Shown one piece after another: positions 459 through 20,926 of a DNA stretch of 24,061 bases (position 1 is the first letter of the stretch; each line of letters opens with the position of its first letter). The position numbers and the translations under genes are program-made. The notes under the pieces were generated by a model. The model made no database searches and had not been told where the DNA came from. It was given only the letters and a program-made list of their open reading frames with translations. The DNA comes from a virus, in the IMG/VR virus record IMGVR_UViG_3300042888_002520, positions 1-24,061 of that record; one strand, 5' to 3'.

Positions 459-459
459 G

Positions 460-1582: not shown

Positions 1583-1585
1583 ATA

Positions 1586-2933: not shown

Positions 2934-3066
2934 ACTTGTAGCCATATTGTGCATGTGCCCAGCGCAGGAATCGTTCAAGACCTTCCTGATCTTCTGGATA
3001 ACTTTCCAAGTAAATCTTGGCCAAGCGATTGATCATTTCAAATATTTGTGGTTCGGTGTATGCCAT
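2920..3066 (-). CDS. Small ORF, 48 aa, unknown function
   Basis: This ORF is read directly from the minus strand. It starts MAYTEPQIFEMINRLAKIYL, continues with an acidic segment (ESYPEDQEGLERF) and ends WAHAQYGYKYGNP. It begins one base after the stop of the preceding gene (TGG TAA C ATG), the same junction seen at four other places here. It overlaps the next gene by 14 nt. The sequence is amphipathic and helical with no membrane segment. Tight packing and plausible composition support a real gene, and skipping it would leave an unusual gap of about 135 nt in a tight operon. No function can be assigned. Confidence 0.7.
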   Translation of the reverse strand: MAYTEPQIFEMINRLAKIYLESYPEDQEGLERFLRWAHAQYGYKYGNP

Positions 3067-3067
3067 G

Positions 3068-3568
3068 TTACCAAGCCTTGTTGTAGTCTACTATCTCACA
3101 GTTGCGACTGATGTCTTTCACAAAGTACACACAGTCTGGATCTGGGTCATCGTTCAATGGCACAGAAAGCAACTGGCCATTCTTTAGTTTGGGTGCATAC
3201 CACGACACTTCGTGATACACATCTAGTATTTCAATGTCTGGGAAACTTGGACGGAAACTTGTGAGTGGATTGAACTGAAATACTTTAAAGCCACGATCGT
3301 TGATTGATGTCAACGGTAACACTTCTAGATCACCTACTTCAGGTTCGCCAATGAGTATTTGCCAGTCCATGGGCATTTTTATGGTGTTGGTTCCTATTCG
3401 TAGCACAAGTGCAGGCGCATTAAAACTTTCTAAAAAGATCAGTGGAATAAAATGATAGTCGGGCTCTTGGGGGTTTGAGTTGTCTAATATAGCAAACCGC
3501 ATGTCATCTACTTCTTCAGGCAAATGATCTAAGTCGTAGTGGATGTTGTCTAGGGTTAATATTCGCAT
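3068..3568 (-). CDS. Conserved phage protein of unknown function, 166 aa
   Basis: From the ATG at 3568 the protein reads MRILTLDNIHYDLDHLPEEV, then mostly beta-type sequence with many Pro, Leu and Ile residues (HFIPLIFLESFNAP, MPMDWQILIGEPEVGD, LPLTSINDRGF, SFRPSFPDIEILDVY). It ends near CVYFVKDISRNCEIV. I see no catalytic motif, and the cysteines are few and unpatterned. I recall it as a conserved hypothetical of aquatic T4-like phages, with no function. No Shine-Dalgarno sequence is visible. A GTG 15 nt upstream is the alternative start, but it falls inside a good promoter match whose expected start site lands near the ATG. The stop is TGG TAA, one base before the next ATG. Confidence 0.75.
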   Translation of the reverse strand: MRILTLDNIHYDLDHLPEEVDDMRFAILDNSNPQEPDYHFIPLIFLESFNAPALVLRIGTNTIKMPMDWQILIGEPEVGDLEVLPLTSINDRGFKVFQFNPLTSFRPSFPDIEILDVYHEVSWYAPKLKNGQLLSVPLNDDPDPDCVYFVKDISRNCEIVDYNKAW

Positions 3569-3574
3569 GTTGTT

Positions 3575-3603
3575 ATAATACACTGTTGTGTGACAGAAGT
3601 CAA
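3575..3603 (-). promoter_or_regulatory. Sigma-70-like promoter, TTGACT-17-TATTAT
   Basis: On the minus strand TTGACT (3603-3598) and TATTAT (3580-3575) are 17 nt apart. The -35 hexamer overlaps the stop codon of the UvsW gene. Transcription should start about 7 nt beyond the -10, at or very near the ATG at 3568. It could drive the small-gene operon to the left of uvsW. The hexamer match and spacing are seen in the sequence; activity is inferred. Confidence 0.45.
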
Positions 3604-5069
3604 CCTATTTTCATCCAGTCCAGCTTTTCTTGTGTAAAGGGATAGTTGGCTTCTTTGTAGAACTGTTTGCGCTTGGTCAAGTGACGCTTGGCAAATTTAC
3701 AAGTGCTGGTCAAGTCCCAGATCTGAACATGATCTTTGTCTTCTGCTCGTCTAATGCCTCGCCCAATGCTTTGTATAACGCGGACAAAGCTCTTTCCAGG
3801 TTCAACCAGAACCAAATTAAAAATACGGGGAATATTGATACCCACGGCGGCCACACCATATGTGGCCACAATGATTTTGTCTGTTGCGTCAGCCACTTCA
3901 TCATACTCTGCTTGCCTGTTTTTTGTTTTGGTTGCACCTGATACAAAAACTGCACGATCGCCCAAGCGTTCCACCAGTTGTCTACCACATTCAGTTCGGT
4001 CCACCAGCACTAGTGTGTTGCCTGTTTCGTTTACTCGGTTTATCAAGTCAGCCATGGTGTCCAAGCGTCCTGATTCCTCAAGCAAGTATTTGAGCTCACT
4101 TTGATAGTCTTTGTATTCCACATGATCAATCAGTTGCACAATGTTCACATGACAGTTGGCCAGCACACCTTGTTGTTGCAGTTCGCTGGCACTGAGCTTG
4201 CCAATCACCGGACCAAGACTCACAAGCAAGGCTTGGCTTTCAAACTTCTCTTTGGGCACAGTTCCAGTCAATCCCCAGCGAATCGGCACTCTCGACATTA
4301 CACCTGTCAGCAAGGTCTTTAGTGCGTCTGCCTTGGCCATGTGTACTTCGTCCACAATAACACATACCACGTCTTCCAAAAACTCACCTATGGTACAATC
4401 GCCTATGCCGGCCTTGGTATTCTTCAACAGGTTGTTTAGACTTTGCCATGTGCATATGGTGTGTTGACGTCCGTATTCTTTTCTGTCACCAAAGTACACA
4501 CCAACATCTTGTTGCATGTTGATATAGTCTGCTTCAGTCTGTGTGACCAAGCTCTTGTTGGGCACAATAACAATACTGCGTCCATAGGGTGTGACAGCAT
4601 TGCTCAAAGCCGCTGTCATTATGGTCTTGCCTGCGCCTGTGGCCACTTCCTGTATGCACTGTGGGTTGGCCAAGAAGTTGTTCACAATCTCCACTTGATA
4701 GTCACGCAACATGATGGGCTCACCTGCGGCGGGATGACCTTTGGGCCAGGTCACATGTGCAAAACTTGTTTCTGAGACCTGTTCAAAGTTGAATGTGTTT
4801 GAGTAGTCCCGTTGATCATCCAGTTCAACATCATAATCCAGCCGCTCCAATATGGGCATGATCTCAGGCAACAGGTTCACATAAGTTGATCCACCCAATT
4901 GAAAGTATGCCACCTTACCATCCCAGCGACCCAGTCTCACTGCTGGCAAATAACGTGCGGCAGGGTTTTCGTATTTGAAAGCATTGACCAAGGCCTTGCG
5001 AGCATCCAAGTCCAGGCCTTCAATCTTGATGTTTACTTCATCACGTATTTGTATGGTGCATCGTTTCAT
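3600..5069 (-). CDS. uvsW: UvsW-type SF2 DNA/RNA helicase, 489 aa
   Basis: This is a complete superfamily-2 helicase. Motif I (Walker A) is ATGAGKT at residues 143-149, motif II is DEVH at 240-243, motif III is LTGT at 267-270, and motif VI is QSIGRGIRR at 433-441. A Q-type LRDYQ segment precedes motif I at 121-125. Before the core lies a roughly 110-residue N-terminal domain with ARYLPAVRLGRWDGKV, typical of the UvsW N-terminal DNA-binding domain. In T4, UvsW unwinds branched DNA and R-loops, drives fork regression, and helps switch from origin- to recombination-dependent replication. The length fits T4 UvsW. The start overlaps the upstream radical SAM stop as ATGA, so they are co-translated. 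The uvsX and uvsY-like genes lie about 17 kb away. Confidence 0.95.
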   Translation of the reverse strand: MKRCTIQIRDEVNIKIEGLDLDARKALVNAFKYENPAARYLPAVRLGRWDGKVAYFQLGGSTYVNLLPEIMPILERLDYDVELDDQRDYSNTFNFEQVSETSFAHVTWPKGHPAAGEPIMLRDYQVEIVNNFLANPQCIQEVATGAGKTIMTAALSNAVTPYGRSIVIVPNKSLVTQTEADYINMQQDVGVYFGDRKEYGRQHTICTWQSLNNLLKNTKAGIGDCTIGEFLEDVVCVIVDEVHMAKADALKTLLTGVMSRVPIRWGLTGTVPKEKFESQALLVSLGPVIGKLSASELQQQGVLANCHVNIVQLIDHVEYKDYQSELKYLLEESGRLDTMADLINRVNETGNTLVLVDRTECGRQLVERLGDRAVFVSGATKTKNRQAEYDEVADATDKIIVATYGVAAVGINIPRIFNLVLVEPGKSFVRVIQSIGRGIRRAEDKDHVQIWDLTSTCKFAKRHLTKRKQFYKEANYPFTQEKLDWMKIG

Positions 5070-6193
5070 ATGTATTGAGCTAGGTCTGGGAATGTGTTTT
5101 TAAAATCTAAATTTCTATATTGATCATGCCGTTGTACAAACTGTTTGAATTGATCAAACAGATTGCTGTTATCTGTGTTCTGCATTAGATTTGACCAGAC
5201 ACGCACATCTTCAATTGTACTTGATTGTAATTTATTTACAATGGCCAACTTGGCCGGAGTTGACCAGACTGAAGGTCTTAACCAAGCAGATGTATGTACC
5301 TTGCCCATCCAGGGTCTGGGTAGTCCTTTTTGTTGACACCATGTTACAAATTCTTCTATGTAAAATATATTAAATGCACTCACAGCATGTGCCACACTGA
5401 GTTTGATGTTTGACTGTTGCTGTTGTAATTTGAGATATTGTTCGGCATGATTCTCTAATGTATTCCAGTCTGCTGGATATCTTAGATACTCAAATCGATT
5501 GTGTATACCATCAATGCTCAACTGCAAATCAATTTCAGCAAAGTGAGTCCATCTATCTAGCCAACTTTGCTCGGGAAAGATGGTGGCATTGGTGGTATAA
5601 TGAATAGAGATATTTTTTGATTGCCCGGTGTGTATGTAATGATCTAACAATGCTCGATGCTGTTCTATATTGGACAGCATGGGTTCACCGCCGTGCAAGT
5701 CTATGTGTATCAAGTTAGGAGCAATGTCAGTAATATTAATGATTAAATCTTTCCGCACACTTTCAATGTTTTGAACTTGTATGCCATACACATCTTTGTA
5801 TTCCTTGATCCATTTGCTGGATGCAGCCGGACCGCAAATGATACATTTTAAGTTGCAAGTGTTTCCCAGCGCCAAACTGGCTGTCAGCAATGCATTGCTA
5901 TCTAAATCATATTCGTCATAATGATGTTTCCAACGAGTGTAATCAAGTTGTCGTTTGCTTTCAATGCCGTTTTCTTCTTCTATCTTGCACCGCTCACATC
6001 CTGAGGGCCACTCACCTGTTTGAAACTGTTGTTTGATCGTGGACAACATTGCACTTTGCCGGTAGTCATCTATGGTGTGATGCTGTATGTTAAAAGTCTG
6101 TGCATAAGACTGACTTCCAAATTTACAACAAGGCAGTATCTCCCCAGTGGGCAGTATTTCCAAATTACTCCAAGGTGCAAAACAAAAAGTCAT
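5066..6193 (-). CDS. Radical SAM protein with extra N-terminal cysteines, 375 aa (copy 2)
   Basis: The radical SAM motif CNLKCIIC provides C113, C117 and C120, and HGGEP follows at 167-171. The N-terminus has MTFCFAPWSN with C4, then a CC pair at C22-C23 and CERC at C66/C69, closely matching the arrangement in the genes starting at 2641 and 22702. The opening FCFAPWSNLEILPTGEILPCC is a hallmark of SPASM/twitch-type radical SAM proteins. The remainder forms the usual partial TIM barrel (LSIDGIHNRFEYLR) and a C-terminal extension of about 100 residues. The substrate is unknown. The stop overlaps uvsW as ATGA, which ties its expression to a recombination gene. There is no Shine-Dalgarno, and two tandem -10 hexamers lie just upstream. 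Confidence 0.92.
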   Translation of the reverse strand: MTFCFAPWSNLEILPTGEILPCCKFGSQSYAQTFNIQHHTIDDYRQSAMLSTIKQQFQTGEWPSGCERCKIEEENGIESKRQLDYTRWKHHYDEYDLDSNALLTASLALGNTCNLKCIICGPAASSKWIKEYKDVYGIQVQNIESVRKDLIINITDIAPNLIHIDLHGGEPMLSNIEQHRALLDHYIHTGQSKNISIHYTTNATIFPEQSWLDRWTHFAEIDLQLSIDGIHNRFEYLRYPADWNTLENHAEQYLKLQQQQSNIKLSVAHAVSAFNIFYIEEFVTWCQQKGLPRPWMGKVHTSAWLRPSVWSTPAKLAIVNKLQSSTIEDVRVWSNLMQNTDNSNLFDQFKQFVQRHDQYRNLDFKNTFPDLAQYI

Positions 6194-7122: not shown

Positions 7123-7701
7123 AATTCTAAAACAATCGAGGTAGCAGTTACACTACAAGGATACTTTTGCAATGACTGGCCGTGTGTGGAGGTTTCTGGG
7201 AATAATCATATTTATTATACAGGAACTGTTCAACAAACACAAGCAATTAGATTTTCAATGCCGTCTTGTGAGATCAATCAAGTTGTTATTACACATCAAA
7301 ACAAAAGATTTGGTCCTGACGGAATATGGGACGTTGCTGTCAAAGACAATGTAATTATTCAAGATCGAGCAGTGAAATTGTTGGATTTTGAGTTGGATGA
7401 CGTTAGTATCAAGTCCTATACATTTGATAATTGTAGATTTGTCACGGACCAAAATGAAATTCTACAAACAGATTATTTTGGTCACAATGGATATTTTGTA
7501 ATTGAGTTCGGAGGGCCAATTTACGAATGGATTATTTGCAATTGTGTCAAACCCCAGGCAAAAATTGCCCCGGGGAACTTTGTGATAAGCACCACTGCAG
7601 ACAACTTGTTTGACTATGTTCAAGACCAAGTAGAGCTAGATGAAATTGAAGGGATTTTAAATCAACATGCACATTTGTTTAATCAATTTACCAAGATATG
7701 A
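7117..7701 (+). CDS. Unknown protein, probably beta-rich, 194 aa
   Basis: The likely start is the ATG at 7117 (MHNSKTIEVAVTLQGYFCND). Starts further upstream would extend deep into the opposite gene. The sequence alternates hydrophobic and polar residues as in beta-sheet proteins (TIEVAVTL, HIYYTGTV, QVVITHQNKRF, VIEFGGPIYEWIICN). A jelly-roll or carbohydrate-binding type fold is possible but unproven. It has no signal peptide or catalytic motif. The C-terminus overlaps the next radical SAM gene by 35 nt, so the two are probably co-translated. The start codon lies within ATGCAT, shared with the divergent gene, and a CTATAAATA late promoter motif is about 100 nt upstream. Confidence 0.7.
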   Translation: MHNSKTIEVAVTLQGYFCNDWPCVEVSGNNHIYYTGTVQQTQAIRFSMPSCEINQVVITHQNKRFGPDGIWDVAVKDNVIIQDRAVKLLDFELDDVSIKSYTFDNCRFVTDQNEILQTDYFGHNGYFVIEFGGPIYEWIICNCVKPQAKIAPGNFVISTTADNLFDYVQDQVELDEIEGILNQHAHLFNQFTKI

Positions 7702-9199
7702 AATCCATCGTCCGCCACTGAGTTTGGCCACACTGAGTGAGATATGCAACCAAGCACAGGTTGACTACAATTGCATAGATTTAAGTTTGTTGATCTATCA
7801 ACATTTACAGGATGACTTTGAAGCCATAGATAATTTTTGTATCACAAGACAAGTTGAACCTGATGTATTGCAAAAACTAAAGGTACTAATTGACCGAATA
7901 ATCAAACAGCAAGTGGATCAGTATCCTGATTCAACATTTGCACTGTCACTATTGAGTATTTGGAGTCAGCCAGTGTGTGAACTTGTGTGCGCCAGTATCC
8001 GAACACACAGCAATTCCCAAATATTATTAGGCGGTCAAGGTTTGGCGGACAAAACTTGGACTATGAATCAAATCAGTCAAGGTGCTGCTGATGAGTTCAT
8101 AGTGAATGAAGCAGAGATTGTTTTTAAAAATTGGCTGCAAGGGGACAAGTCAGGTCCTGGCTGTAATAATTACAACTTTGAGCAGATAGATGATCTTGAT
8201 CAGCATGTTGTAGTACCTGACTACAGAAAACTTCCTATTGATCAATATCCTTACCTGGGTAACACCAGTTTTTTCATTACTGCCAGTCGTGGGTGTGTGC
8301 GTAATTGTGCCTACTGCGACATTGCACATCAATGGAAAAAGTATCGGTACCGAAGTGCAGCCAGTGTGTTTAAAGAAATGACCACACAATTCGAACGTCA
8401 CGGCGTGACTGATTTCTTTTTCACAGACAGTTTGATAAACGGCAGCATGAAAATGCTCAATGACTTATGTGACTTGTTAATTGACTACAAACAAAAGAAT
8501 CCAAATGCAAAGTTGAACTGGCAAGGACAATATATTTTTCGTCCTCGCAGTTCAGTCAATCTTGCGCACATTAAAAAAATGACTGATGCTGGTTTGAATT
8601 TTTTAGTAGTGGGTCTTGAGACTGGTAGTGATCAGGTGAGGTATGATATGAATAAAAAACATACTACTGATGATGCAGAGTGGTTTTTGGAACAGTTCAA
8701 ACAGCATGGTATAAAATGTAGACTGTTGATGATAACTGGATGGATAAATGAAACAGAAGAAGATCACAAAGCTACTTTGGAACTGTTTCCTCGTTGGCAA
8801 AAATATGTAGCCAGTGGGACTATAACTGGCATTGAATTAGGTAGCACATTAAGTATTTTGGAACATGCACCGGTGGCCATGCGAGTGCCTGACCTGGGTA
8901 TTCAACTGCTGAACAACAAAGGCTACCTGTGGTTCAATCCCACCAACCCTGACTTGACAATTGCCACAAGATTTAAAAGAAGACTAGAAACACATCGACA
9001 AGCAATAAAGTATTACTGGCCTATAACACGTAGCCTTTATCGACTGAGTACTATCAAGTCAAATTTATTAGAAGCTATTAAATATCTGACAGAGCCGCAG
9101 GCTCGTCCTCGGGTATTTGAAATAAATTTAGTCAAAAAAACAGGCTCCGAAGAGCCTGTTGTAAAAACCCGGGGCGGAGCCAACCAATCCCCAGGGTAA
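7667..9199 (+). CDS. B12-binding-type radical SAM protein, 510 aa
   Basis: The radical SAM motif CVRNCAYC (C210, C214, C217) follows SFFITASRG, as in the B12-binding/Elp3-like radical SAM group. The N-terminal 160 residues look like a cobalamin-binding-type Rossmann domain: MHICLINLPRYEIHRPPLSL, then ILLGGQG at 119-125 and DEFIVNEAE. I do not see the DxHxxG cobalamin lower-ligand motif, so B12 use is uncertain. Further features are FFFTDSLING and GLNFLVVGLETGSD (around 320), typical of the barrel. Relatives include methyltransferases and methylthiotransferases. It differs from the other three radical SAM genes, which carry N-terminal cysteine pairs. Its last 20 or so codons read through a terminator hairpin that serves the opposite strand. 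Confidence 0.9.
   Translation: MHICLINLPRYEIHRPPLSLATLSEICNQAQVDYNCIDLSLLIYQHLQDDFEAIDNFCITRQVEPDVLQKLKVLIDRIIKQQVDQYPDSTFALSLLSIWSQPVCELVCASIRTHSNSQILLGGQGLADKTWTMNQISQGAADEFIVNEAEIVFKNWLQGDKSGPGCNNYNFEQIDDLDQHVVVPDYRKLPIDQYPYLGNTSFFITASRGCVRNCAYCDIAHQWKKYRYRSAASVFKEMTTQFERHGVTDFFFTDSLINGSMKMLNDLCDLLIDYKQKNPNAKLNWQGQYIFRPRSSVNLAHIKKMTDAGLNFLVVGLETGSDQVRYDMNKKHTTDDAEWFLEQFKQHGIKCRLLMITGWINETEEDHKATLELFPRWQKYVASGTITGIELGSTLSILEHAPVAMRVPDLGIQLLNNKGYLWFNPTNPDLTIATRFKRRLETHRQAIKYYWPITRSLYRLSTIKSNLLEAIKYLTEPQARPRVFEINLVKKTGSEEPVVKTRGGANQSPG
9134..9160 (-). terminator. Intrinsic terminator with UUCG loop (minus strand)
   Basis: Read on the minus strand, AACAGGCTC, loop TTCG and GAGCCTGTT form a perfect 9-bp stem (9160-9152 with 9147-9139), followed directly by a run of T (the stem's last two plus five more). 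UUCG-capped hairpins with a U-tract are typical of T4-like phage terminators. It would stop transcription from the early promoters at 10366-10908. It lies inside the 3' end of the plus-strand radical SAM gene. Confidence 0.85.
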
Positions 9200-9293: not shown

Positions 9294-10322
9294 TTAGGCA
9301 CTCTTCATACATGTAGTCTCAGCCATGCGCTTCCAGTTGCCTGCAAAGCTCTTGCGCAAGTCTGCAATCTTCAATGCCATACGCAGGCTCATCTCACGCA
9401 GACGATTCTGATTTGCTTCCATGAACTCAACGATCTCGTCCTGTACTACAGGCTCAAAATCATATTCTGAAAACAGCACACCGTCCTTGGCAATCTGCTT
9501 GATACGCAACACCTTGTCACGCATGGTGTCCAGTGTCAAGTCCAAGTAGTGACAGCGCGATTGCAGTGCATCCAAGTGATCACGCAATTTTTGGCTCTTC
9601 ATTGTGTCAAACTTCAAGTTGGTGATAAAAATCACACTACCCTTGAACTCAAAACGATCAGGAATGCCTTCGCGGCGCAAAGCACTGGATTCACTCAACC
9701 ATGAAATGGTACGCTTTTTGCCGGAGTCCAATGCGCCCTTCAGCAAGTTTAGGGCCACGTCGTCAAGCAAAATGCTGTCACAGTCATCAAACACCAACAC
9801 ACAATTGGCATCTGAATACTTGTACAGTGTCTGATACAAGCCAATGGGCGTTGCACTACCTTTCACAACTTCGGCACGGAGGCGCTTGCCTGCCAATTTG
9901 TCAAACAAGGTGGCCTTTTCAATTTCACGCTCGACGCCAAAGCTCTTGCCAACTCCAGGAGGACCACTCACAATCATGGCACGGATGTCACCATTCACAC
10001 AAGCCTTTGTCATCTCATTCAAGATGTCAAAACGCTCGCGAATGCGAGTCATAATTTGATCTTCAGTTTCAGTTTCAGTTTGTGCGGCAACAAAGGCCAC
10101 GGTGTTGTCATTACTCACGTTTTCTCCATTGACATATTCGATGTCTTTAATGTTGTTGACTTTGATACGGATGGTGTCGGGGCAGTTGGGAAATGCTCCG
10201 TTGTTTTCTACTGTCACAAAATTGCCTTTGGCGCCAGTTTGATAACCGGACACAAGATTGAAAGCAATATTGCGCACGGGTTTGTTGCGATACTCACCTT
10301 TGATAACTCGAATTGCACTCAT
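9294..10322 (-). CDS. AAA+ ATPase, 342 aa
   Basis: Walker A is GPPGVGKS at residues 120-127 and Walker B is VLVFDDCD at 175-182. A sensor-1-like IFITN follows (SVIFITNLKFD), and DRFEFKG precedes it. The first 100 residues are a separate beta-rich region (IRVIKGEYRNKPVRNIAF, then a run of Thr/Glu), without a known motif. The single AAA+ module resembles that of clamp-loader or remodelling ATPases, but there is no evidence it is gp44, since the N-terminal region does not fit. It is the last substantial gene of an early-type unit: a TTGACC-17-TATAAT promoter and an AAAGGAGCC ribosome site sit directly upstream. A terminator lies beyond the small ORF that follows. Its partner and target are unknown. 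Confidence 0.92.
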   Translation of the reverse strand: MSAIRVIKGEYRNKPVRNIAFNLVSGYQTGAKGNFVTVENNGAFPNCPDTIRIKVNNIKDIEYVNGENVSNDNTVAFVAAQTETETEDQIMTRIRERFDILNEMTKACVNGDIRAMIVSGPPGVGKSFGVEREIEKATLFDKLAGKRLRAEVVKGSATPIGLYQTLYKYSDANCVLVFDDCDSILLDDVALNLLKGALDSGKKRTISWLSESSALRREGIPDRFEFKGSVIFITNLKFDTMKSQKLRDHLDALQSRCHYLDLTLDTMRDKVLRIKQIAKDGVLFSEYDFEPVVQDEIVEFMEANQNRLREMSLRMALKIADLRKSFAGNWKRMAETTCMKSA

Positions 10323-10365: not shown

Positions 10366-10394
10366 ATTATAGCAAATGATGGATTATTGGTCAA
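10366..10394 (-). promoter_or_regulatory. Strong early-type promoter before the AAA+ ATPase
   Basis: On the minus strand TTGACC (10394-10389) is followed after 17 nt by TATAAT (10371-10366). A 43-nt stretch with AAAGGAGCC then leads to the ATG at 10322. The -35 overlaps the 3' end of the 60-aa gene. Hexamers and spacing match the host sigma-70 consensus and the two neighbouring copies. Confidence 0.85.
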
Positions 10395-10566
10395 CCGGGG
10401 CAAACAGTTCTTGCCCTTGTTGCATAAACACAACAAATGCTTCCATTGTTTTTTCACAGTAAAGCATCTTGCCGTGCTTTTGGATATCTTGCAAAGTTTC
10501 CAACAGGCCCATGCCCATGAAGTCTGCTTCTTTTTGTATTTGTTTGATTGCTGTAGTGATCTGCAT
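10384..10566 (-). CDS. Small early-type protein of unknown function, 60 aa
   Basis: The sequence MQITTAIKQIQKEADFMGMG, LLETLQDIQKHGKMLYC, then EKTMEAFVVFMQQGQELFAP is all-helical and rich in Gln and Met. It has no signal peptide or membrane segment. A consensus promoter and an AAAAAGGAGCC ribosome site lie immediately upstream, stronger than for most genes here. That is the main support for a real early gene. Its 3' end contains the -35 box of the ATPase promoter. Small early phage proteins commonly inhibit or redirect host functions, but no target can be inferred from this sequence. Confidence 0.8.
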   Translation of the reverse strand: MQITTAIKQIQKEADFMGMGLLETLQDIQKHGKMLYCEKTMEAFVVFMQQGQELFAPVDQ

Positions 10567-10643
10567 TGCTGGCTCCTTTTTGCTTTGTATGTGGTTATTA
10601 TAGCATTTTGGGAATTATTGGTCAAGTACTACCAAAGTATTAC
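10564..10643 (-). repeat. 80-nt promoter-leader repeat, copy A
   Basis: This segment and 10847-10926 are both 80 nt and can be aligned without gaps. Shared parts on the minus strand are GTAATACTT, GGTAGTACTTGACC, AATTCCCA, TGCTATA and CATACAAAGCAAAAAGG followed by AGCCAGCAATG. The differences cluster in the spacer and just after the -10. It runs from the end of one gene to the ATG of the next. Confidence 0.85.
10597..10625 (-). promoter_or_regulatory. Strong early-type promoter before the 60-aa gene
   Basis: On the minus strand TTGACC (10625-10620) is followed by a 17-nt spacer and TATAAT (10602-10597), then the leader CATACAAAGCAAAAAGG and the ATG at 10566. It overlaps nothing but the last codons of the preceding gene's downstream flank. 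The direct repeat GTAATACTT / GGTAGTACTT precedes the -35. Confidence 0.85.
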
Positions 10644-10849
10644 TTAATGAAGTTTTCAAAGAAACGGGTGTTGATTGCGTCCATTTCCGCCTGCTCCACA
10701 TAGAAGTCAGTAGTAGGATCGTAGTACTGACCCTCTTTGTTGTCATAATACAACACGCGACCTGAGAAGTTGAATGGGCCTTCCAGTCCTGCACGAGCAC
10801 TGTATTTGTTGCGCATGACGTCTATGGTGTCAACTACACGATATCCCAT
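10640..10849 (-). CDS. Small early-type protein of unknown function, 69 aa
   Basis: The protein reads MGYRVVDTIDVMRNKYSARA, a beta-like middle (GPFNFSGRVLYYDNKEG, QYYDPTTDFYVEQAEMDAI) and a helical end (FFENFIK). It is Tyr- and Asp-rich, with no known motif. A consensus-type promoter (TTGACC-17-TATACT) and an AAAAAGGAGCC site lie directly upstream, and the stop sits in the promoter region of the next gene. The gene is therefore the first of the early-type unit running left to the terminator at 9134. Function is unknown. Confidence 0.8.
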   Translation of the reverse strand: MGYRVVDTIDVMRNKYSARAGLEGPFNFSGRVLYYDNKEGQYYDPTTDFYVEQAEMDAINTRFFENFIK

Positions 10850-10926
10850 TGCTGGCTCCTTTTTGCTTTGTATGCCACTAGTATAGCACGATGGGAATTT
10901 CTGGTCAAGTACTACCTAAGTATTAC
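10847..10926 (-). repeat. 80-nt promoter-leader repeat, copy B
   Basis: This is the second copy of the segment at 10564-10643. It fills the space between the glycosyltransferase stop (10927) and the 69-aa gene's ATG, so the repeat unit equals a complete promoter plus ribosome-binding site. The -10 here is TATACT instead of TATAAT. Confidence 0.85.
10880..10908 (-). promoter_or_regulatory. Strong early-type promoter before the 69-aa gene
   Basis: On the minus strand TTGACC (10908-10903), a 17-nt spacer and TATACT (10885-10880), then a leader with AAAAAGGAGCC before the ATG at 10849. It is the most upstream of three similar promoters. Confidence 0.82.
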
Positions 10927-11673
10927 CTAGCACCAGTTGTTTGCAATCACAGGATCACTAGTGCATTCATGCGGTTTGGGACGACCATGAAATACAAGTA
11001 TGCTGGTATCACCGCCAATGTACGCATTAGAATCTGACCCGGGTGAATGGGGTTTTCTTGTGGCAAAATTATATCCGCCATTACTCACTTGCCAACGCCA
11101 ACTTTGTAGATGTTGTTGATCAAAGTATCTACGTTGGGTGGGATCAATCACCAATCCCAAGTAATCTTGGTCGCCAGGGTATTTTACAACTGTACGGTTG
11201 ATATCCAATTGATCAAATTCGTGCCACACATGTGCATACCGGGCAACGTTCCACCACATTACACTGCTATTCATACCTGAATGTGTTTGGCGTTGAAGAT
11301 ATCTAAAGTCTCTAATGGTCCAAAAGCATTGTGTACTCAATGCCGGAATCCAACTCAAATCATTTATGATTACACAATCAAGATCAAAGTACAACAAGTT
11401 GCCTGCATGATATTCAGGATTGAACAACTGCATTTTGTACCACCATTCACGTTTGGGCCCTGAAATACCTGGCCATTCTTTTACCACATGTTTGATCATG
11501 TGCGGTGGCACTGGCCTATCCTGCTCGGTGTACACATGAAAACGTATGCCTTGTGGCATGTGTCGTAGCAGCATGTTGTACAGTTTTTCCACATACACCC
11601 AGTCATAACCTGTGCCGTGGATTACACAGGCACAGTCTACAATCTGATCATGTCGTGGAGAGTGTTTGCTCAT
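10927..11673 (-). CDS. Glycosyltransferase-like protein, 248 aa (FDLD motif)
   Basis: The start chosen is the ATG at 11673, forming an ATGA overlap with the preceding GT17-like gene; a TTG six bases upstream is the alternative. The fold looks like GT-A: an N-terminal strand (DCACVIHGTGYDWVYVEKLY), a HVYTEQDRPVPP segment, and the metal/nucleotide motif FDLDC at residues 96-100. SGMNSSVMWWN and GDQDYLG follow, as in GT8-type and related transferases. The acceptor and donor sugar are not deducible. It is the last gene of the four-gene glycan operon 13702 to 10927, and its stop abuts the promoter repeat at 10926. Confidence 0.82.
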   Translation of the reverse strand: MSKHSPRHDQIVDCACVIHGTGYDWVYVEKLYNMLLRHMPQGIRFHVYTEQDRPVPPHMIKHVVKEWPGISGPKREWWYKMQLFNPEYHAGNLLYFDLDCVIINDLSWIPALSTQCFWTIRDFRYLQRQTHSGMNSSVMWWNVARYAHVWHEFDQLDINRTVVKYPGDQDYLGLVIDPTQRRYFDQQHLQSWRWQVSNGGYNFATRKPHSPGSDSNAYIGGDTSILVFHGRPKPHECTSDPVIANNWC

Positions 11674-12452
11674 GACCAATAGGGATATTGACGTAACACT
11701 GTATCAACTGATGCAGGATACTGAGGGTCAACTTGGTGCGTGGCAGTTTTGTGATTGATAGCAGTGCCGTCAAGGCGTTTGAATGTTTCTAGCATTTCAT
11801 CTGCATCTCGATGTTGTGTCTCAATGCAACTCCAGGCCTTGCTCTTGATGATGTCATCATTGCCAATCCATCCCCAATGCCAACCAGCAGTTTTGGGGAA
11901 CAGTACACAGTGACTACGGTCTTTTTTCTTTTGGGCATGTCCCACTCCACTCTGCAGACCCTTGTATAGTTTGCATGGATCTGCAAACATGTGTTTTTTG
12001 GCCACAACATTTCCAGTCCACTTACGATCCACTTGCTGATCCCACCGATAGATATACATGTCAAGTGTGCAAGTCACAGGCTGATTGACAGTGTTGACCG
12101 TTTGTAATATTTCTGGCCATAGTGCAGGATTAATAATTTCATCCAAGTCACTGTGCATCACAATGTCGTCATCACTGCAATCTTGATAGCCTTCTAACAA
12201 TGCTGAACGCTGTCCGTTTTCAATGTCCCAGTTGGTCCAGGTCTCAGGAATGTCAAGGCACACCACACGCAGTCGATCTCCCCAGTGGCTGTAGCGAGCC
12301 ATGTTGTCAGACAGATAGAATGGTTTGGGCCGACCGCTCATGGTTCGATTGCCTTCACAGATGACCCAACGGTCCACGTAGTGTTTGGCGAGCTCCAAAC
12401 GTATATCCAGCATATCAAACTCGTTGTTGAAAAGTGTAGTATCTACTATCAT
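11670..12452 (-). CDS. GT17-like glycosyltransferase, 260 aa
   Basis: The opening MIVDTTLFNNEFDMLDIRLE, then VDRWVICEGNRTMSGRPKPF and later HSDLDEIINP at residues 100-109, is characteristic of glycosyltransferase family 17 proteins. Eukaryotic relatives are beta-1,4-N-acetylglucosaminyltransferases, and bacterial and viral relatives act in surface-glycan synthesis. SDLDE is the probable metal-binding site. A Trp-rich segment (TAGWHWGWIGND) near 190 belongs to the same family pattern. The length matches the family. It begins one base after the methyltransferase stop (TTT TAA C ATG) and ends in an ATGA overlap with the next transferase. Donor and acceptor are unknown. Confidence 0.88.
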   Translation of the reverse strand: MIVDTTLFNNEFDMLDIRLELAKHYVDRWVICEGNRTMSGRPKPFYLSDNMARYSHWGDRLRVVCLDIPETWTNWDIENGQRSALLEGYQDCSDDDIVMHSDLDEIINPALWPEILQTVNTVNQPVTCTLDMYIYRWDQQVDRKWTGNVVAKKHMFADPCKLYKGLQSGVGHAQKKKDRSHCVLFPKTAGWHWGWIGNDDIIKSKAWSCIETQHRDADEMLETFKRLDGTAINHKTATHQVDPQYPASVDTVLRQYPYWS

Positions 12453-12453
12453 G

Positions 12454-13086
12454 TTAAAATTTAAAAATTATTTGGTAAGCATCGTAAATGGGCTGTTTGC
12501 CTTGTTGTGCTAGATATTCAACAATGCGTCGACCTTTGCCTGTTCTACGATTGTCTTCTAGAAATCTAGCATTGTCATCTATGGCCACAACAGCACCTGG
12601 TTTGATGTGTGATTCAATGGCTTGAAATTCTTTCAAGTGGTGTTCGGCGCTGTCATGATCGTTCTTCCATTTTACGTCCCAAGAGTCTAGATAAAACAAA
12701 TCTACTTGGTCAAGATCGTTTTGATGCAATAGCCAAGTCACACTGTCACTGCAACTGGCGCGGAAACAAGGATTGGGCAAGATTGCCTGAGCAATGTCAA
12801 CTGCCGCAGGATCAATGTCTACTGATCTTACTGTGCCACTGTGGTGCTCTACAAACTCCACAAACAATCGAGCACTTTGTCCATCTTTCCAGTTGCCTGG
12901 GTTACGCAGGGTACCAGTTTCCACAATGTGGTATTGAGATTGCTGGAGACTTTCCAGGTAGGCAAATATCAAATTAAAGCCATCTGCACGGCAATACAAA
13001 CCTTCATGCAACCCGCGTTTGGCGCCGCTGGTGTTTGAGTTCAAACAATCAAAATATTGTTCACGATAATGTTTAAGCCATGTCAT
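12454..13086 (-). CDS. Class I SAM-dependent methyltransferase, 210 aa
   Basis: The start is the ATG at 13086 (MTWLKHYREQYFDCLN). An apparent longer ORF to 13281 only overlaps the next gene. Motif I is VETGTLRNPGNW (55-66), motif II is SVDIDP (88-93), and a post-motif segment LFYLDSWDV contains an acidic pair. PGAVVAIDDNARF then resembles the strand-4/5 region of class I (Rossmann) methyltransferases of the TylF/Methyltransf_24 type. It would transfer a methyl group from S-adenosylmethionine, probably to a sugar hydroxyl given the neighbours. No clear Shine-Dalgarno is visible. It is followed by a TAA C ATG junction to the GT17-like gene. Confidence 0.85.
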   Translation of the reverse strand: MTWLKHYREQYFDCLNSNTSGAKRGLHEGLYCRADGFNLIFAYLESLQQSQYHIVETGTLRNPGNWKDGQSARLFVEFVEHHSGTVRSVDIDPAAVDIAQAILPNPCFRASCSDSVTWLLHQNDLDQVDLFYLDSWDVKWKNDHDSAEHHLKEFQAIESHIKPGAVVAIDDNARFLEDNRRTGKGRRIVEYLAQQGKQPIYDAYQIIFKF

Positions 13087-13102
13087 AGAGATATTTAAGT
13101 AG

Positions 13103-13702
13103 CTAGATACCGCTGTTGTCAAAATCTGGCTTGTCCACCAACCAGCAGCGTCCAGAGCGGCGTACTTTGAGATTACGGTGGCCAAAAAATTCCCACACAG
13201 CTTTTTGTACACCTGGATGACCCTTGGTGTAGTCATCTCCGCCAAATTGGCCACCAGGCCGTATTTTTGGCCACCAGGCATGCAGATCTTGTATCACACA
13301 ATCGTAAGTATGTCCAGCATCAACATAACAGAAGTCCACACTGCCATTATCAAACTGATTGGCTGCGTCCCAGCTCAAACTTTTGATAGGTACAATCAGA
13401 TCCAATACAGGCGCCACATTGTGTGCAAACACTTGTTCCAAAGTTTGTGATTTTATTATGTCTTGTTCAGCTAGTTCTATACCGCCGTCCCAGGTGTCCA
13501 CACAGTAGAATTTACCAAACTTTTTTTTCTGCAACAATTCAACCATGCAATAAGCTGTGCTTTTTCCAGTCCACGCACCCAGCTCGACCCAACAGCCTCC
13601 TGCTGGGAACAAGTCCAACACAATGTCCAACATCACTGTGTTTCTATGGCTCATAAATCCGTCAATGTTTTGATAAAAATGATTCATTTTGTATTTACTC
13701 AT
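13103..13702 (-). CDS. Class I SAM-dependent methyltransferase (Methyltransf_24-like), 199 aa
   Basis: Motif I is VELGAWTGKST (39-49), motif II is VDTWDG (68-73), and VDFCYVDAGHTYD followed by RPGGQFGGDD is the strand-4/5 region. All are in the order expected for a Rossmann-fold methyltransferase of the Methyltransf_24 group. FFGHRNLKVRRSGRCW near the end is basic. A sugar O-methyltransferase role is likely in this setting but unproven. It is the first gene of the minus-strand glycan operon. Its start is 23 nt from the divergent nucleotidyltransferase gene. Confidence 0.87.
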   Translation of the reverse strand: MSKYKMNHFYQNIDGFMSHRNTVMLDIVLDLFPAGGCWVELGAWTGKSTAYCMVELLQKKKFGKFYCVDTWDGGIELAEQDIIKSQTLEQVFAHNVAPVLDLIVPIKSLSWDAANQFDNGSVDFCYVDAGHTYDCVIQDLHAWWPKIRPGGQFGGDDYTKGHPGVQKAVWEFFGHRNLKVRRSGRCWLVDKPDFDNSGI

Positions 13703-13711
13703 AATCTTAGC

Positions 13712-13720
13712 CTATAAATA
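13712..13720 (+). promoter_or_regulatory. T4-type late promoter motif CTATAAATA next to an ATG
   Basis: The plus strand has CTATAAATA, matching the T4 late consensus, only 5 nt before the ATG at 13726. Initiation 6-7 nt beyond the box would fall on or just after the start codon. The motif is identical to that at 7008-7016. Confidence 0.5.
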
Positions 13721-13725
13721 TCTAC

Positions 13726-14490
13726 ATGAAAATAGTTCTAGTTACGGGTGGATTTGATCCGCTACATTCGGGGCATATTGCCCACCTCAAGGCAGCTCGC
13801 ACTTTGAGCGACAAACTTATTGTGGGCATCAACAGCGACGACTGGCTGATTCGTAAAAAAGGCAGAGCATTCATGCCATGGAATGAGAGATTGTGTGTGA
13901 TCAACAATCTCTCAATGGTAGATGAAGTTTACACCTTTGATGACGAAGACGGATCAGCTAAACATTTTATACAACAAGTTCGCGCACATTATCCAGAAGC
14001 AGAGTTAATTTTTGCCAACGGTGGTGATCGTACAGACAAAAACATTCCCGAAATGGATTTCAAAGACAATAATTTAAAATTTGTGTTTGGGGTTGGCGGA
14101 GAAGATAAAAAGAATTCTAGCTCATGGATTTTGCAAGAATGGAAAACACCAAAAACTGATCGTGCATGGGGTTATTATCGTGTGTTGCATGAAGTAGGTG
14201 CCAATACCAAACTAAAAGAACTTACTGTGATGCCCAACACATGTTTAAGCATGCAACGACATGATCAACGTGCAGAATTTTGGTTTGTGGCTGAGGGCGC
14301 GGCCACGGTGTACACCTTGGATGAAGCTTCAACTGATCAAGAAGTCAAGTGCAGTCTTACCATGCATGAACACACATTTATCAAAACAAACGAATGGCAT
14401 CAGTTGTGCAACGAAACTAATCAACCTTTAAAGTTGATTGAAATACAATACGGTGAACGCTGTGTTGAGCAAGATATACAACGTCGATGA
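13726..14490 (+). CDS. Nucleotidyltransferase-cupin fusion, 254 aa
   Basis: Two domains are visible. Residues 1-140 form a cytidylyltransferase-like nucleotidyltransferase: GGFDPLHSGH with HSGH at 14-17, the HxGH motif of the TagD/RfaE2 group, and MPWNERL downstream. Residues 146-250 form a cupin like the C-terminal domain of type II mannose-6-phosphate isomerases/ManC: TVMPNTCLSMQRHDQRAEFW, FVAEGAATV, and NEWHQLCNE. Together they suggest activation of a sugar or polyol phosphate coupled to isomerisation. The exact substrate is unknown. Both halves look intact and no frameshift is seen. No Shine-Dalgarno is evident. The stop overlaps the next gene as ATGA. Confidence 0.85.
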   Translation: MKIVLVTGGFDPLHSGHIAHLKAARTLSDKLIVGINSDDWLIRKKGRAFMPWNERLCVINNLSMVDEVYTFDDEDGSAKHFIQQVRAHYPEAELIFANGGDRTDKNIPEMDFKDNNLKFVFGVGGEDKKNSSSWILQEWKTPKTDRAWGYYRVLHEVGANTKLKELTVMPNTCLSMQRHDQRAEFWFVAEGAATVYTLDEASTDQEVKCSLTMHEHTFIKTNEWHQLCNETNQPLKLIEIQYGERCVEQDIQRR

Positions 14491-15173
14491 AACCTATACC
14501 TGTATTTGTAGGATATGATCCACGAGAAGCTGTGGCATATCATGTGTGTGCAAACTCAATCATTAGACACGCTAGTCAACCAGTGGCCGTAATTCCCGTG
14601 GCTCTAAACTTGTTTCAAGACTACGATGAAACACACACTGATGGCAGCAATCAATTTATCTACAGCCGTTTTCTTGTGCCACACTTGATGGACTACCAGG
14701 GCTGGGCCATATTCATTGACGGCGACATGATCCTGCGCGGAGATATTGTAGAACTATGGAATCTACAAAGTCCTTACAACGACGTCATGGTGGTCAAACA
14801 CGACTATCGAACACGCATGACTGAAAAGTATCTTGGGTCAAAGAACGAAGACTATCCACGCAAAAACTGGTCAAGTGTGATACTGTGGAACTGCAACAGT
14901 TTTCCCAATCGCAAACTAACACCTGAGTTTGTGCAAAAATCAACAGGGTCTGAACTGCATAGATTCACTTGGTTAGAAGATGAACGCATTGGTGAACTGC
15001 CCCCAGAGTGGAACTGGTTGGATGTCGAATATGAATGGAATCCACTTGCTAAACTTGTTCATTATACTTTAGGAACTCCGTGCTTTCATGAGTTTGCTGA
15101 TGTGGGAGATTTTGCAGAAGAGTGGCACCGAGAAAGACTACTGACTGACTATTGTCAACAAAGGAGCACCTGA
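14487..15173 (+). CDS. Glycosyltransferase-like protein, 228 aa (DGDM motif)
   Basis: The sequence MKPIPVFVGYDPREAVAYHV opens a GT8-like GT-A domain. FIDGDMILRGDI, with DGDM at 78-81, supplies the metal-binding DxD. YSRFLVPHLMDYQGWAIF before it is typical of GT8 transferases. The later NWSSVILWNCNSF and HYTLGTPCFHE match the conserved C-terminal part of that group. It probably adds a hexose to the glycan made by this operon; donor and acceptor are not deducible. It starts in an ATGA overlap with the nucleotidyltransferase-cupin gene and ends in a TGATG overlap with the next. Confidence 0.87.
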   Translation: MKPIPVFVGYDPREAVAYHVCANSIIRHASQPVAVIPVALNLFQDYDETHTDGSNQFIYSRFLVPHLMDYQGWAIFIDGDMILRGDIVELWNLQSPYNDVMVVKHDYRTRMTEKYLGSKNEDYPRKNWSSVILWNCNSFPNRKLTPEFVQKSTGSELHRFTWLEDERIGELPPEWNWLDVEYEWNPLAKLVHYTLGTPCFHEFADVGDFAEEWHRERLLTDYCQQRST

Positions 15174-15985
15174 TGACAAACTTTATTTTTCTCAGCAAAG
15201 GTGGCACAGATGAATATATCAACATGTTGGCCAATAGCGCAGGTAAAGAACCCACTAACACAGATTTTTTTGACTACAAGTATGACATAATAATGGATGG
15301 AATGACTCCAGTACTCCGTGGTATCTTGAAATACAAGATCATGCAAAAATGCCTGGCCGACCACAAAGATTTTTACTACGTGGATTCTGGCTATGTTGGT
15401 AACAATATCAACCGACTAAACCCCATGGGCAATAAACTGTATCATCGCATTGTCAAGAACGATTTGCAACAAACTGAAATACGACCCCGTCCAAACGATC
15501 GTTGGCAAGCTCTTGGTATCAACCTACAGCCAAGAAAGTTTGGCAAAAAAATTATCATTGCGGCACCAGACGAAAAGCCCTGTAGGTATTACGGAATTGA
15601 TCAAGCACAGTGGGTGCAACAAACTATTGAAGAAATTAAAAAATACACCAACCGTCCTATTATAGTGCGTCAACGAGCACCAAAACGAGTTGACCGGATA
15701 GCAACTGCGCCATTGCAGCAGGTGCTGACACAAGACGTTCATGCTCTGGTGACATTTAACAGTGTTGCCGCAGTAGAATCTATTTTGTCAGGAGTACCAG
15801 CATTTGTACTGGCGCCCAGTCATATAGCACAACCTGTGGCTAGTACGCAGTTGAGTCAAATTGAAAATCCTTACTGGGCAGATCAAGACAAATTAAATGC
15901 ATGGTGCCATAGTATGGCCTATGGTCAATACCATGTGCGTGAACTGCGCGATGGTACCGCTTTTAGAATGATGCAAGAATCATGA
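15173..15985 (+). CDS. Glycan biosynthesis/transfer protein, 270 aa (paralog 1 of 3)
   Basis: The start is the ATG at 15173, with AAGGAG ten bases upstream; a TTG at 15152 is the alternative. The protein begins MTNFIFLSKGGTDEYINMLA. The C-terminal half has HALVTFNSVAAVESILSGVP followed by AFVLAP, then LSQIENPYW and VRELRDGTAF. The same order occurs in the genes at 15982 and 19129. NSxxAxxxxLxGxPxFV resembles the UDP/CMP-sugar-binding end of capsule polysaccharide (KpsC/KpsS-type) transferases. I have no proof for the donor. A middle stretch rich in Lys (PRKFGKKIIIAAP) lies before it. It sits inside the plus-strand operon with TGATG and ATGA junctions. Confidence 0.72.
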   Translation: MTNFIFLSKGGTDEYINMLANSAGKEPTNTDFFDYKYDIIMDGMTPVLRGILKYKIMQKCLADHKDFYYVDSGYVGNNINRLNPMGNKLYHRIVKNDLQQTEIRPRPNDRWQALGINLQPRKFGKKIIIAAPDEKPCRYYGIDQAQWVQQTIEEIKKYTNRPIIVRQRAPKRVDRIATAPLQQVLTQDVHALVTFNSVAAVESILSGVPAFVLAPSHIAQPVASTQLSQIENPYWADQDKLNAWCHSMAYGQYHVRELRDGTAFRMMQES

Positions 15986-16950
15986 AAGTCGTCTGCTATT
16001 TGGCCACGCTGCCAAGAAAATTGGAGTACACGTCTGACCAAAGCCTTCAAGCTGCCACAGACAAACTCAACACTTTGAAGTTTTTTATTCAAGGTGTACA
16101 GGCCTGCGGTGATGAAGGTGTTGTTGTAGATGACGCTAACTATCAGCCCAGTGACGTGGCTGTGATACTGGGCTGGGTACACGAACATGGCAAAACCGCG
16201 CCACACTTGCAACTGCGTCAGCAGATATTGGACGGGCAACGTGCGTACAATGGTCGTACTGTGATTGCTGACAGCAATCTTTTTCTGTACAAAAACACAA
16301 GCAATCCTGGCTACTGGTTGCGCTACAGTTTTGATGGCATATTCCCCAACACAGGACAATACTGTGACACTGCGCCCGAACCTGCTCGTTGGTCAGCAGT
16401 GCAACAAAATCTCAACATACATCTCAAACCTTGGCGCACACAAGGCAATCATGTCCTGTTGTGTTTGCAACGTGACGGTGGCTGGAGCATGGGCGGAGTC
16501 GAAGTACTGGACTGGGCAATGAAGATCATACTGCAATTGCGCAGATATACCAACCGGCCCATTAGAATACGTGCGCATCCTGGCGACAAACGAGCCAAGA
16601 AGTATTGCGACCGATTGATGAAACTGTGTGTGGGCCGCAGACTACTCAATGTAGAACTCAGCACACCAGATACATCGCTAGAGCATGATTTAAAAAATTG
16701 TTGGGCGGTGGTCAATCATAACTCCAGCCCTGCAGTGGGCGCAGCAATCGAAGGTATTCCAGTTTTTGTTACTGATCCTGAACGCAGTCAAGTGCGAGAA
16801 ATTGCCGAAACAAGATTGGACAAAATAGAAACACCTATAACACCTGACCGTGACGCATGGATACAACGTATAAGTCAATTCCACTGGAGTCATCAAGAGC
16901 TCCAAGACGGCACAGCCTGGGCACACATGAGAAAGTTTGTGGAAAAATGA
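15982..16950 (+). CDS. Glycan biosynthesis/transfer protein, 322 aa (paralog 2 of 3)
   Basis: The C-terminal part has WAVVNHNSSPAVGAAIEGIP and VFVTDPERS, then LDKIETPITPDRDAW and HQELQDGTAW. These are in the same order as its two paralogs, and a RPIRIRAHPGDKR segment precedes them. NHNSSPAVGAAIEGIPVFV is close to motifs in KpsC/KpsS-type capsule glycosyltransferases. The N-terminus (MKVVCYLATLPRKLEYTSDQ) is longer than in the other two. It lies in ATGA overlap with both neighbours. A CMP- or UDP-sugar transferase role is inferred. Confidence 0.75.
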   Translation: MKVVCYLATLPRKLEYTSDQSLQAATDKLNTLKFFIQGVQACGDEGVVVDDANYQPSDVAVILGWVHEHGKTAPHLQLRQQILDGQRAYNGRTVIADSNLFLYKNTSNPGYWLRYSFDGIFPNTGQYCDTAPEPARWSAVQQNLNIHLKPWRTQGNHVLLCLQRDGGWSMGGVEVLDWAMKIILQLRRYTNRPIRIRAHPGDKRAKKYCDRLMKLCVGRRLLNVELSTPDTSLEHDLKNCWAVVNHNSSPAVGAAIEGIPVFVTDPERSQVREIAETRLDKIETPITPDRDAWIQRISQFHWSHQELQDGTAWAHMRKFVEK

Positions 16951-17666
16951 TAGACATTATTACCAGCTTTGATCAACGCTATCATGACCTAATAGGCAAG
17001 GATTGCGTAAGCAGTTTCTTAGAACACTGGGATTCACAATTTCAGTTGACTTGTTATGTCGAAGGTTTTGCCTTGCCTGACCATGCCAGACTCAAACAGA
17101 TTGATTTTAACTTGCAAATGGGCCCAGAGTATCATGCATTGCAACAAGACACTGCTTATGGTGTGCAAGTTAAAAAATTCAGCAAAAAAGCGTTCAGTGT
17201 GATACATGCCATGTATCACAGTGCTGCAGATTGGATATTGTGGTTGGATGCTGATGTAGTTACCATGAAGGCGTTGCCGGCTTATGTGATCTTGGACTGC
17301 ATGCGGTCTGAAGATCTCAGCATGTACATGGGCGTGACCTATACTACCGACAAATCAGGCAATCCTGGATCATGGCTTGTGCCCGAAACTGGGGTGTTTG
17401 CTGTAAACACCAAACATCCAAAGTTTGAAACTCTTAGACACGAGTATCGTAGACGCTATGTTGAACGTGATCATTCTGACCTGCGCAGATTCTACGACAA
17501 TGATGTGTTTGGTGCTGCCATCAATCTTGCTGATGCCCCGGTGTATGATTTGTGTGAGGGATTTGCCAAACCTTACAAAACACCCTTACCACACACAGTG
17601 CTGGGTGAATATCTTATACACTACAAGGCCAAACACAGCAAGGCCGACTATCAAGCAGACCAATAA
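16947..17666 (+). CDS. Glycosyltransferase-like protein, 239 aa (DADVV motif)
   Basis: The start at 16947 gives the ATGA overlap with paralog 2; longer readings would fall inside that gene. The DxD-type motif is ILWLDADVV with DADVV at 101-105, preceded by FSKKAFSVIHAMYHSAADW. WLVPETGVFAVNTKHPKFE then gives the usual post-DxD segment of GT-A transferases. The gene starting at 18466 on the minus strand shares the whole FSxKxxSVxH...AD.L.W.DAD block, so the two are paralogs. It ends converging on that gene with a 16-nt overlap of coding sequence. No terminator is visible between them. Confidence 0.85.
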   Translation: MIDIITSFDQRYHDLIGKDCVSSFLEHWDSQFQLTCYVEGFALPDHARLKQIDFNLQMGPEYHALQQDTAYGVQVKKFSKKAFSVIHAMYHSAADWILWLDADVVTMKALPAYVILDCMRSEDLSMYMGVTYTTDKSGNPGSWLVPETGVFAVNTKHPKFETLRHEYRRRYVERDHSDLRRFYDNDVFGAAINLADAPVYDLCEGFAKPYKTPLPHTVLGEYLIHYKAKHSKADYQADQ

Positions 17667-18466
17667 CTTTCGCTTCGGGGTTGAATGAGATCCTTGGCTG
17701 GACTCCGGCCAGTTTCCTTGCGCCTGCCTTTGAGATGGTCAAGATAGGCACCCCAAGCAGTGTTGATTAGTGGATGACCTTCGCCTTTGATCAGTCCTTG
17801 ACTCCAGTTAAGTTGGCGCCATTTAGGATGTGTAGCTTGCACTTCGTTACGAGTCTCATCAAACACCCAGCAGTCATTCCATTCGGCCATGGTCATAAGA
17901 CGTCCTGAATCATAGGCCAACTGAAATTCTTTGAGCCACGTTAGTGTAGCAGTGTCACGCAGGTTCATGCCGTACAAACCACATTCACTAAACTTTCGTT
18001 CGCGTCCTAGATAGGCCAGTCCTACCTTGGCGGGCATTTGACTGTTGATAAAGTCAGTAGAAATAGGTGTATGGCACACCATGTCTGCATCCATCCAAAA
18101 TAATACATCGGCATTGCAACTGTCTGCACAGTGAACTACTGAATAGACTTTGTGGCTGAATCTAATGGCGTCCCAACGGAATCCGAGGCCTGGGGCTTTG
18201 CCTTTGCGGTCCGCTGGCCCTGTGGCAACTAAACCACGTGCTCTAGGATCGCTGCCCCAGCGTTGTTTGAACGCTACAATTTCTGGGCTTACTGCATGTA
18301 AATCTCTCACATGCAGATTAGGTGCGCTCTGTTGTATCACACAGTCTTCAGTGTACACATATAAATCAATTTCTTTGGGCCAGTTTTGTAAGAACGTGTC
18401 AATCATGCGGCTGGCGTAGCGTTCGTAACCGCTGGCATTGAATGTTGTGACCACTGCGTATTTCAT
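17651..18466 (-). CDS. Glycosyltransferase-like protein, 271 aa (DADMV motif)
   Basis: The start is the ATG at 18466, in an ATGA overlap with the FkbM methyltransferase gene; an in-frame ATG 12 bases upstream would extend into it. VLFWMDADMV gives DADMV at 126-130, preceded by FSHKVYSVVHCADSCNADV, the block shared with the plus-strand glycosyltransferase at 16947. The N-terminus (MKYAVVTTFNASGYERYASR) is a first GT-A strand, and EIDLYVYTEDCVI is a typical second segment. A basic tail (KGRRKETGRSPAKDLIQPR) follows. Probably a hexosyltransferase on the phage glycan; the acceptor is unknown. Confidence 0.85.
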   Translation of the reverse strand: MKYAVVTTFNASGYERYASRMIDTFLQNWPKEIDLYVYTEDCVIQQSAPNLHVRDLHAVSPEIVAFKQRWGSDPRARGLVATGPADRKGKAPGLGFRWDAIRFSHKVYSVVHCADSCNADVLFWMDADMVCHTPISTDFINSQMPAKVGLAYLGRERKFSECGLYGMNLRDTATLTWLKEFQLAYDSGRLMTMAEWNDCWVFDETRNEVQATHPKWRQLNWSQGLIKGEGHPLINTAWGAYLDHLKGRRKETGRSPAKDLIQPRSESYWSA

Positions 18467-19110: not shown

Positions 19111-19128
19111 ATATAACTATTTAATCCA

Positions 19129-20926
<1,798 letters not shown>

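Follow-up and report, generated by a model that had tools for sequence, protein, structure and literature searches.

Three near-identical promoters on the minus strand of the window (the whole 24,061-nucleotide stretch of viral DNA analysed here) most probably represent copies of one cassette of a phage lineage, a cassette that would give small genes promoters of their own and serve as a recombination joint (probability about 0.85). It is proposed to consist of a hairpin or terminator, a host-type extended −10 promoter of the sigma70 class whose spacer has a fixed length of 17 nt and contains ATTCCCA, and a short leader with a strong SD and the ATG. Each copy would supply one small gene with its own promoter, so that gene plus cassette would stand alone as a module. 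In its complete form, hairpin and U-tract would terminate the upstream transcript, the promoter would let host RNA polymerase start afresh on the next gene, most probably at an early stage of infection, and the leader would provide the strong SD. Recombination between cassettes could then insert, delete and reorder modules with expression intact, because near-identical cassettes stand at many joints. We infer promoter activity, early timing, termination and host sigma70 use from the sequence features described below.

The window carries homologues of UvsX, UvsW and UvsY and, as far as genes alone can tell, belongs to a T4-superfamily phage, of which the record is just a 24-kb fragment. A blastn search with the region found no isolate with similar DNA. 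At the protein level, the AAA protein of the window is 42% identical in amino acids to its counterpart in PA5oct-like Pseudomonas jumbo phages (Arenbergviridae), and the terminase of a 349-kb relative (G001) matches T4-superfamily phages at 53% at best, this being its identity to PA5oct-group phages and to Sinorhizobium and Agrobacterium jumbo phages. Many ORFs of the window (1586-2641, 5066-6193, 7667-9199 and 10927-20911) resemble glycosyltransferase, radical SAM and sugar-metabolism genes, mostly as judged by eye from translations, and radical SAM proteins are also encoded on the minus strand of G001. A weak hint of the host group comes from L358, a contig of 89 kb that was binned with a Methylophilaceae MAG and has a 64% identical AAA protein and a TTGACC promoter.

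Promoters and repeats in the window

Three consecutive minus-strand genes, encoding proteins of 69 aa (F3), 60 aa (F4) and 342 aa (F1, an AAA ATPase), are each preceded by TTGACC, 17 nt and TATAMT (Table 1). All three promoters are present where the original prediction had placed them, and they are the only sites of the window within one mismatch, compared with 0.27 in shuffled sequence. Promoters A and B lie in the longest repeat pair of the window, two 80-nt copies that had been described as exact; they do align without gaps, but are identical at 69 of 80 positions (86%), including a 28-nt stretch (CATACAAAGCAAAAAGGAGCCAGCAATG) common to both. Promoter C has the hexamers and AAGGAGCC in common with A and B while its spacer and leader have diverged, in agreement with the earlier description of a third copy with a different leader, and its −35 falls inside the last codons of the upstream gene (...CCG GTT GAC CAA TAA). 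The 80-nt unit had no real match in isolated phages. A fourth, weaker promoter (TTGACT-17-TATTAT, 3603-3568 on the minus strand, −35 at 3603) stands before the MRILTLDN gene, whose ATG begins exactly 6 nt after the −10.

Table 1. Positions of cassette elements and neighbouring genes in the window
Feature	Position	Strand	Description
Cassette copy A	10847..10926	-	80 nt; hairpin, promoter, leader, SD AAGGAGCC, ATG
Hairpin remnant A	10909..10926	-	GTAATAC-TTAG-GTAGTAC, without U-tract
Promoter A	10908-10880	-	TTGACC-17-TATACT; −35 TTGACC 10903..10908; −10 TATACT 10880..10885
Promoter A spacer	10886..10902	-	17 nt, AGAAATTCCCATCGTGC, with conserved ATTCCCA and TG
Cassette copy B	10564..10643	-	80 nt
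Hairpin remnant B	10626..10643	-	GTAATAC-TTTG-GTAGTAC; relatives have TACTTTTTGG between hairpin and −35
Promoter B	10625-10597	-	TTGACC-17-TATAAT; −35 TTGACC 10620..10625; −10 TATAAT 10597..10602
Promoter B spacer	10603..10619	-	AATAATTCCCAAAATGC
Promoter C	10394-10366	-	TTGACC-AATAATCCATCATTTGC-TATAAT; −35 at 10394; spacer diverged; without hairpin
Gene F2	10927..11679	-	glycosyltransferase, phrog_1962; usual left-hand neighbour of module array
Gene F3	10640..10849	-	69 aa (MGYRVVDT...), phrog_13298, function unknown
Gene F4	10384..10566	-	60 aa (MQITTAIK...), function unknown; 3' end contains promoter C −35
Gene F1	9294..10322	-	AAA ATPase, phrog_1250; fixed right-hand neighbour of module array

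Copies A and B, being adjacent and 86% identical, could suggest a recent local gene duplication that carried its promoter along, making the repeats by-products and not joints. However, F3, F4 and F1 belong to separate families, the promoter precedes about 135 unrelated gene families, and orthologous junctions reveal both absence and insertion of promoter-bounded genes; no homology was seen among the downstream genes. We therefore consider duplication very improbable.

The promoter in viral contigs and large genomes

A core pattern of 21 fixed bases, TTGACC-N4-ATTCCCA-N3-TGCTATANT (written TTGACCNNNNATTCCCANNNTGCTATANT), matched at least 120 stretches of viral contigs. No GTDB cellular genome contig matched it at full stringency, where about 0.1 was expected by chance (an estimate from collection size), which leaves room for weaker host versions of the motif. 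Fifteen large jumbo-phage records contained 3-20 core copies each (up to 2 mismatches), always on one strand, and the reversed pattern gave no copies in the same records. The original prediction had proposed to look for further copies in relatives, and for the core such copies are present. These multiple copies, their placement before so many unrelated families and the terminator-promoter composites and hybrid junctions described below give good support to its suggestion that promoter and ribosome site were copied as a unit.

Position, strand and spacing were examined in three large genomes (G001, G004 and G007) by a scan blind to the spacer, which asked for no more than TTGAC plus a −10 having at most one mismatch. 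With 17-nt spacing, 154 sites were forward (54, 57 and 43, respectively) vs 9 reverse (2, 2 and 5), and any other spacing gave 0-6 sites. The strand bias is not trivial, since in G001 and G007 the minus strand holds about a third of the ORFs of at least 200 aa. Among 158 promoters, TTCCC (up to one mismatch) began at offset 11 in 48 and at offset 10 in 7, with 0-2 occurrences elsewhere, and its presence was coupled to C at position 6 of the −35 (p 4e-10), to TG (1e-8) and to GG before the −35 (6e-8), p-values that are rough because the sites are not independent by descent. The sites have the sigma70 extended −10 form (TTGAC, 17-nt spacer, TGn, TATAAT), followed by an initiator-like (C/T)ATA about 7 nt past the −10 and by SD-like sites peaking 15-20 nt past it.

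Since the −35, the extended −10, the spacing and the initiator all conform to sigma70, ordinary strong sigma70 promoters might have arisen independently at each gene, their likeness reflecting convergence on the consensus. Against this, the spacer motif, the identical 28-nt leader and the hairpin lie outside that consensus, the hybrid junctions reveal exchange, and in PA5oct, one of the closest isolates, the sigma70-like sites vary in spacing and do not contain TTCCC. The sequence shared outside the sigma70 elements disfavours convergence, to which we give hardly any credence. A test for homogenisation of leaders within a genome gave a small excess: the similarity of leaders between unrelated genes was only slightly higher within genomes than between them (0.514 vs 0.491, from non-independent pairs), which counts against the cassette reading.

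Two other promoter types came to light in these searches. A distant relative (L357, positions 344-5372, from a Porticoccaceae MAG contig) has a repeat of its own, GGTTGACA-17-TATACT-GTATATAACAGTTAGGGCAAAGGGCA, before several genes, and this appears to be another lineage-specific promoter-leader cassette. A second conserved promoter type, TTGACTTNTTGNNGNNATAAGTATATANT, occurs in 43 contigs (for example L009, 12456-12484), and sites like it precede uvsW and other genes, with the ATG 5-6 nt after the −10. As a further repeated family this type (TTGACTTNTTG...ATAAGTATATANT) was rejected, because each contig has a single copy.

Terminators and module junctions

The original prediction saw no stem-loop in front of these promoters. 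A hairpin is in fact present in copies A and B, where it is the U-tract that is absent. Because GTANTAC forms a palindrome on either side of its central base, the direct repeat GTAATAC/GTAGTAC is also an inverted repeat, and GTAATAC-N4-GTAGTAC forms a 9-position stem with one mismatch. The two window hairpins are weak (−5.7 and −5.8 kcal/mol, z −2.2 and −1.1), while a perfect hairpin followed by a T-run in L027 reached −16 kcal/mol (z −4.7). The composite of hairpin, TACTTTTTGG and TTGAC is exact in 23 contigs, and the orthologous F3/F4 junction exists both with and without TACTTTTTGG, with a clean 10-nt difference between AAGTAATACTTTTGTAGTACTACTTTTTGGTTGACC in L012 and AAGTAATACTTTGGTAGTACTTGACC in the window, which leaves the window form without the U-tract. 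Hairpin plus TACTTTTTGG in relatives is thus a full predicted terminator, and the window copies, lacking exactly those 10 nt, would be cassettes that kept the hairpin. Across 150 core promoters, terminator-like hairpins stood before the −35 in 31, vs 8 in shuffles, although such structures were also raised on the reverse complement (19 of 150); a recognisable terminator lies directly upstream of only about one fifth of promoters.

Comparison of about 60 contigs showed that the interval between the glycosyltransferase gene and the AAA gene is a variable array of small genes, which differ by contig (F3, F4, F7, F8, F11, F12, F15, F16, F17 and others) and nearly every one of which has its own promoter. 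Two contigs (L308 and L309) are without F4, and their single F3-AAA junction is a promoter hybrid that switches at TTGACCA, being of the F3/F4 type up to GTAGTAC and of the AAA-promoter type from TTGACCATTAATTCAA on. Such a hybrid is the product expected of recombination between two cassettes, or of an equivalent deletion, and its direction was probably loss of F4 and not gain elsewhere. Taken together, the variable arrays and the hybrid junctions show the repeated promoters as apparent joints for the gain, loss and reordering of small genes. Swapped upstream genes were also expected at the GTARTAC border of F3; the upstream sequences formed one cluster, and this argument was abandoned.

The spacer motif, start codons and known phage promoters

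The fixed spacer may give the polymerase an additional contact, or it may be bound by a regulator. Phage regulation would make the family a regulon and not a set of plain strong promoters, with a phage-encoded repressor or activator binding ATTCCCA, the GTARTAC pair or both. Such a reading would account for the conservation of ATTCCC in mid-spacer while neighbouring positions vary more, for its coupling to a sixth −35 base (C) that is suboptimal for sigma70, and for GTANTAC pairs that mostly have an 11-nt step and precede a promoter in 10 of the 11 cases listed (three genomes and the window). However, these pairs are absent from most copies, no regulator candidate was identified, and a promoter of the general cassette form precedes the AAA gene in all 75 orthologues examined, of which only 10 have ATTCCC within one mismatch yet −35, TG and −10 are kept, indicating that the spacer motif is not obligatory. 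For the GTAATAC/GTAGTAC repeat in particular, which had been suggested as a regulator site, hairpin arms are the better fit, each GTANTAC arm being self-palindromic, and a role in regulation could still be added. On balance we regard a phage regulon as unlikely.

Start codons define a subclass of these promoters. Among 814 distinct promoter-like sites in all DNA collected, 171 have an ATG at offset 35 (6 nt after the −10), with far fewer at the adjacent offsets (24 and 9) and a second peak at 58-60; in the three large genomes this ATG is the first open one at 25 of 163 sites. In PA5oct this sharp peak is absent, with no ATG at 6 nt and one at 7 nt. The exact 6-nt distance in about 15-20% of promoters predicts leaderless mRNAs. 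It is a tentative, rather doubtful possibility that some factor, either a phage regulator or a modified host polymerase, recognises the spacer heptamer in addition to the standard sigma70 contacts and makes the family a phage-wide regulon, and that in a promoter subset the start codon coincides with the transcription start, an ATA/ATG change at the initiator switching between SD-led and leaderless forms.

With respect to timing of the proposed cassette, the genes downstream of the promoters are mostly small and uncharacterised, and the minus-strand genes of G001, which are without promoters of this kind, encode tail fibre and virion proteins among others. A search for AsiA and MotA as signs of a T4-like middle switch found none above cut-off in 9 records, and the T4 late motif TATAAATA was rare and without clear strand preference. 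Small downstream genes, strand separation from virion genes and undetected AsiA/MotA are compatible with early transcription without proving it. In T4 middle promoters a MotA box stands in place of the −35 and the phage encodes AsiA and MotA; this class was rejected on the TTGACC −35 and on the AsiA/MotA search of those 9 records.

PeSL cassettes of T4-type phages were reportedly described by Arbiol in 2010 (doi 10.1093/gbe/evq006) and Comeau in 2014 (doi 10.1093/gbe/evu129), the latter under a title that names them composite promoter-terminator motifs. In PMC4503421, PeSLs (promoter early stem loops) are presented as mediators of gene shuffling among related T4-like phages. The kinship to PeSLs raised by the original prediction gains from the multi-copy core, the full terminator-promoter composites of relatives and the hybrid junctions. 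Like PeSLs, the cassettes combine a sigma70-type promoter with a stem-loop or predicted terminator between small genes, in the full form in relatives, are multi-copy (with form, copy number and intergenic position as in PeSLs), are tied to module shuffling (variable arrays and the hybrid switch at TTGACCA), and reside in a T4-superfamily phage, as judged by UvsX/UvsY/UvsW and the G001 terminase. The stem-loop is joined to the promoter in the exact composites of relatives, in A and B as a hairpin only, and in C not at all. Compared by description only, they differ from PeSLs in their uncultured jumbo lineage, in the fixed ATTCCCA spacer, in a stem-loop upstream of the promoter that is often truncated or absent, and in a leader and SD that are part of the copied unit. 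T4 early promoters have excellent −35, TGn and −10 elements plus an extra consensus outside these (PMC2988021); the cassettes likewise have an extra consensus beyond the sigma70 elements, which here includes a specific spacer heptamer, with TTGACC as the −35. Unlike the cassettes, the promoters of PA5oct-like jumbo phages, among the nearest isolates by terminase and AAA ATPase, have no ATTCCCA spacer, mixed spacing and no leaderless peak. The cassette, which belongs to an uncultured lineage and has a fixed motif in its spacer, thus probably works as PeSLs do, with early timing and termination as predicted parts of that likeness.

With these results, the shuffling of promoter-terminator cassettes known from T4-type isolates would also apply to a lineage of jumbo phages that is abundant and uncultured, and a recombination joint becomes visible near nucleotide resolution in natural genomes, where a gene is missing and a hybrid promoter stands in its place. 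The motif offers a way to locate module boundaries and candidate early genes in phages from metagenomes, while the conserved spacer and the subclass with ATG at the start raise directly testable questions on RNA polymerase recognition and leaderless translation.
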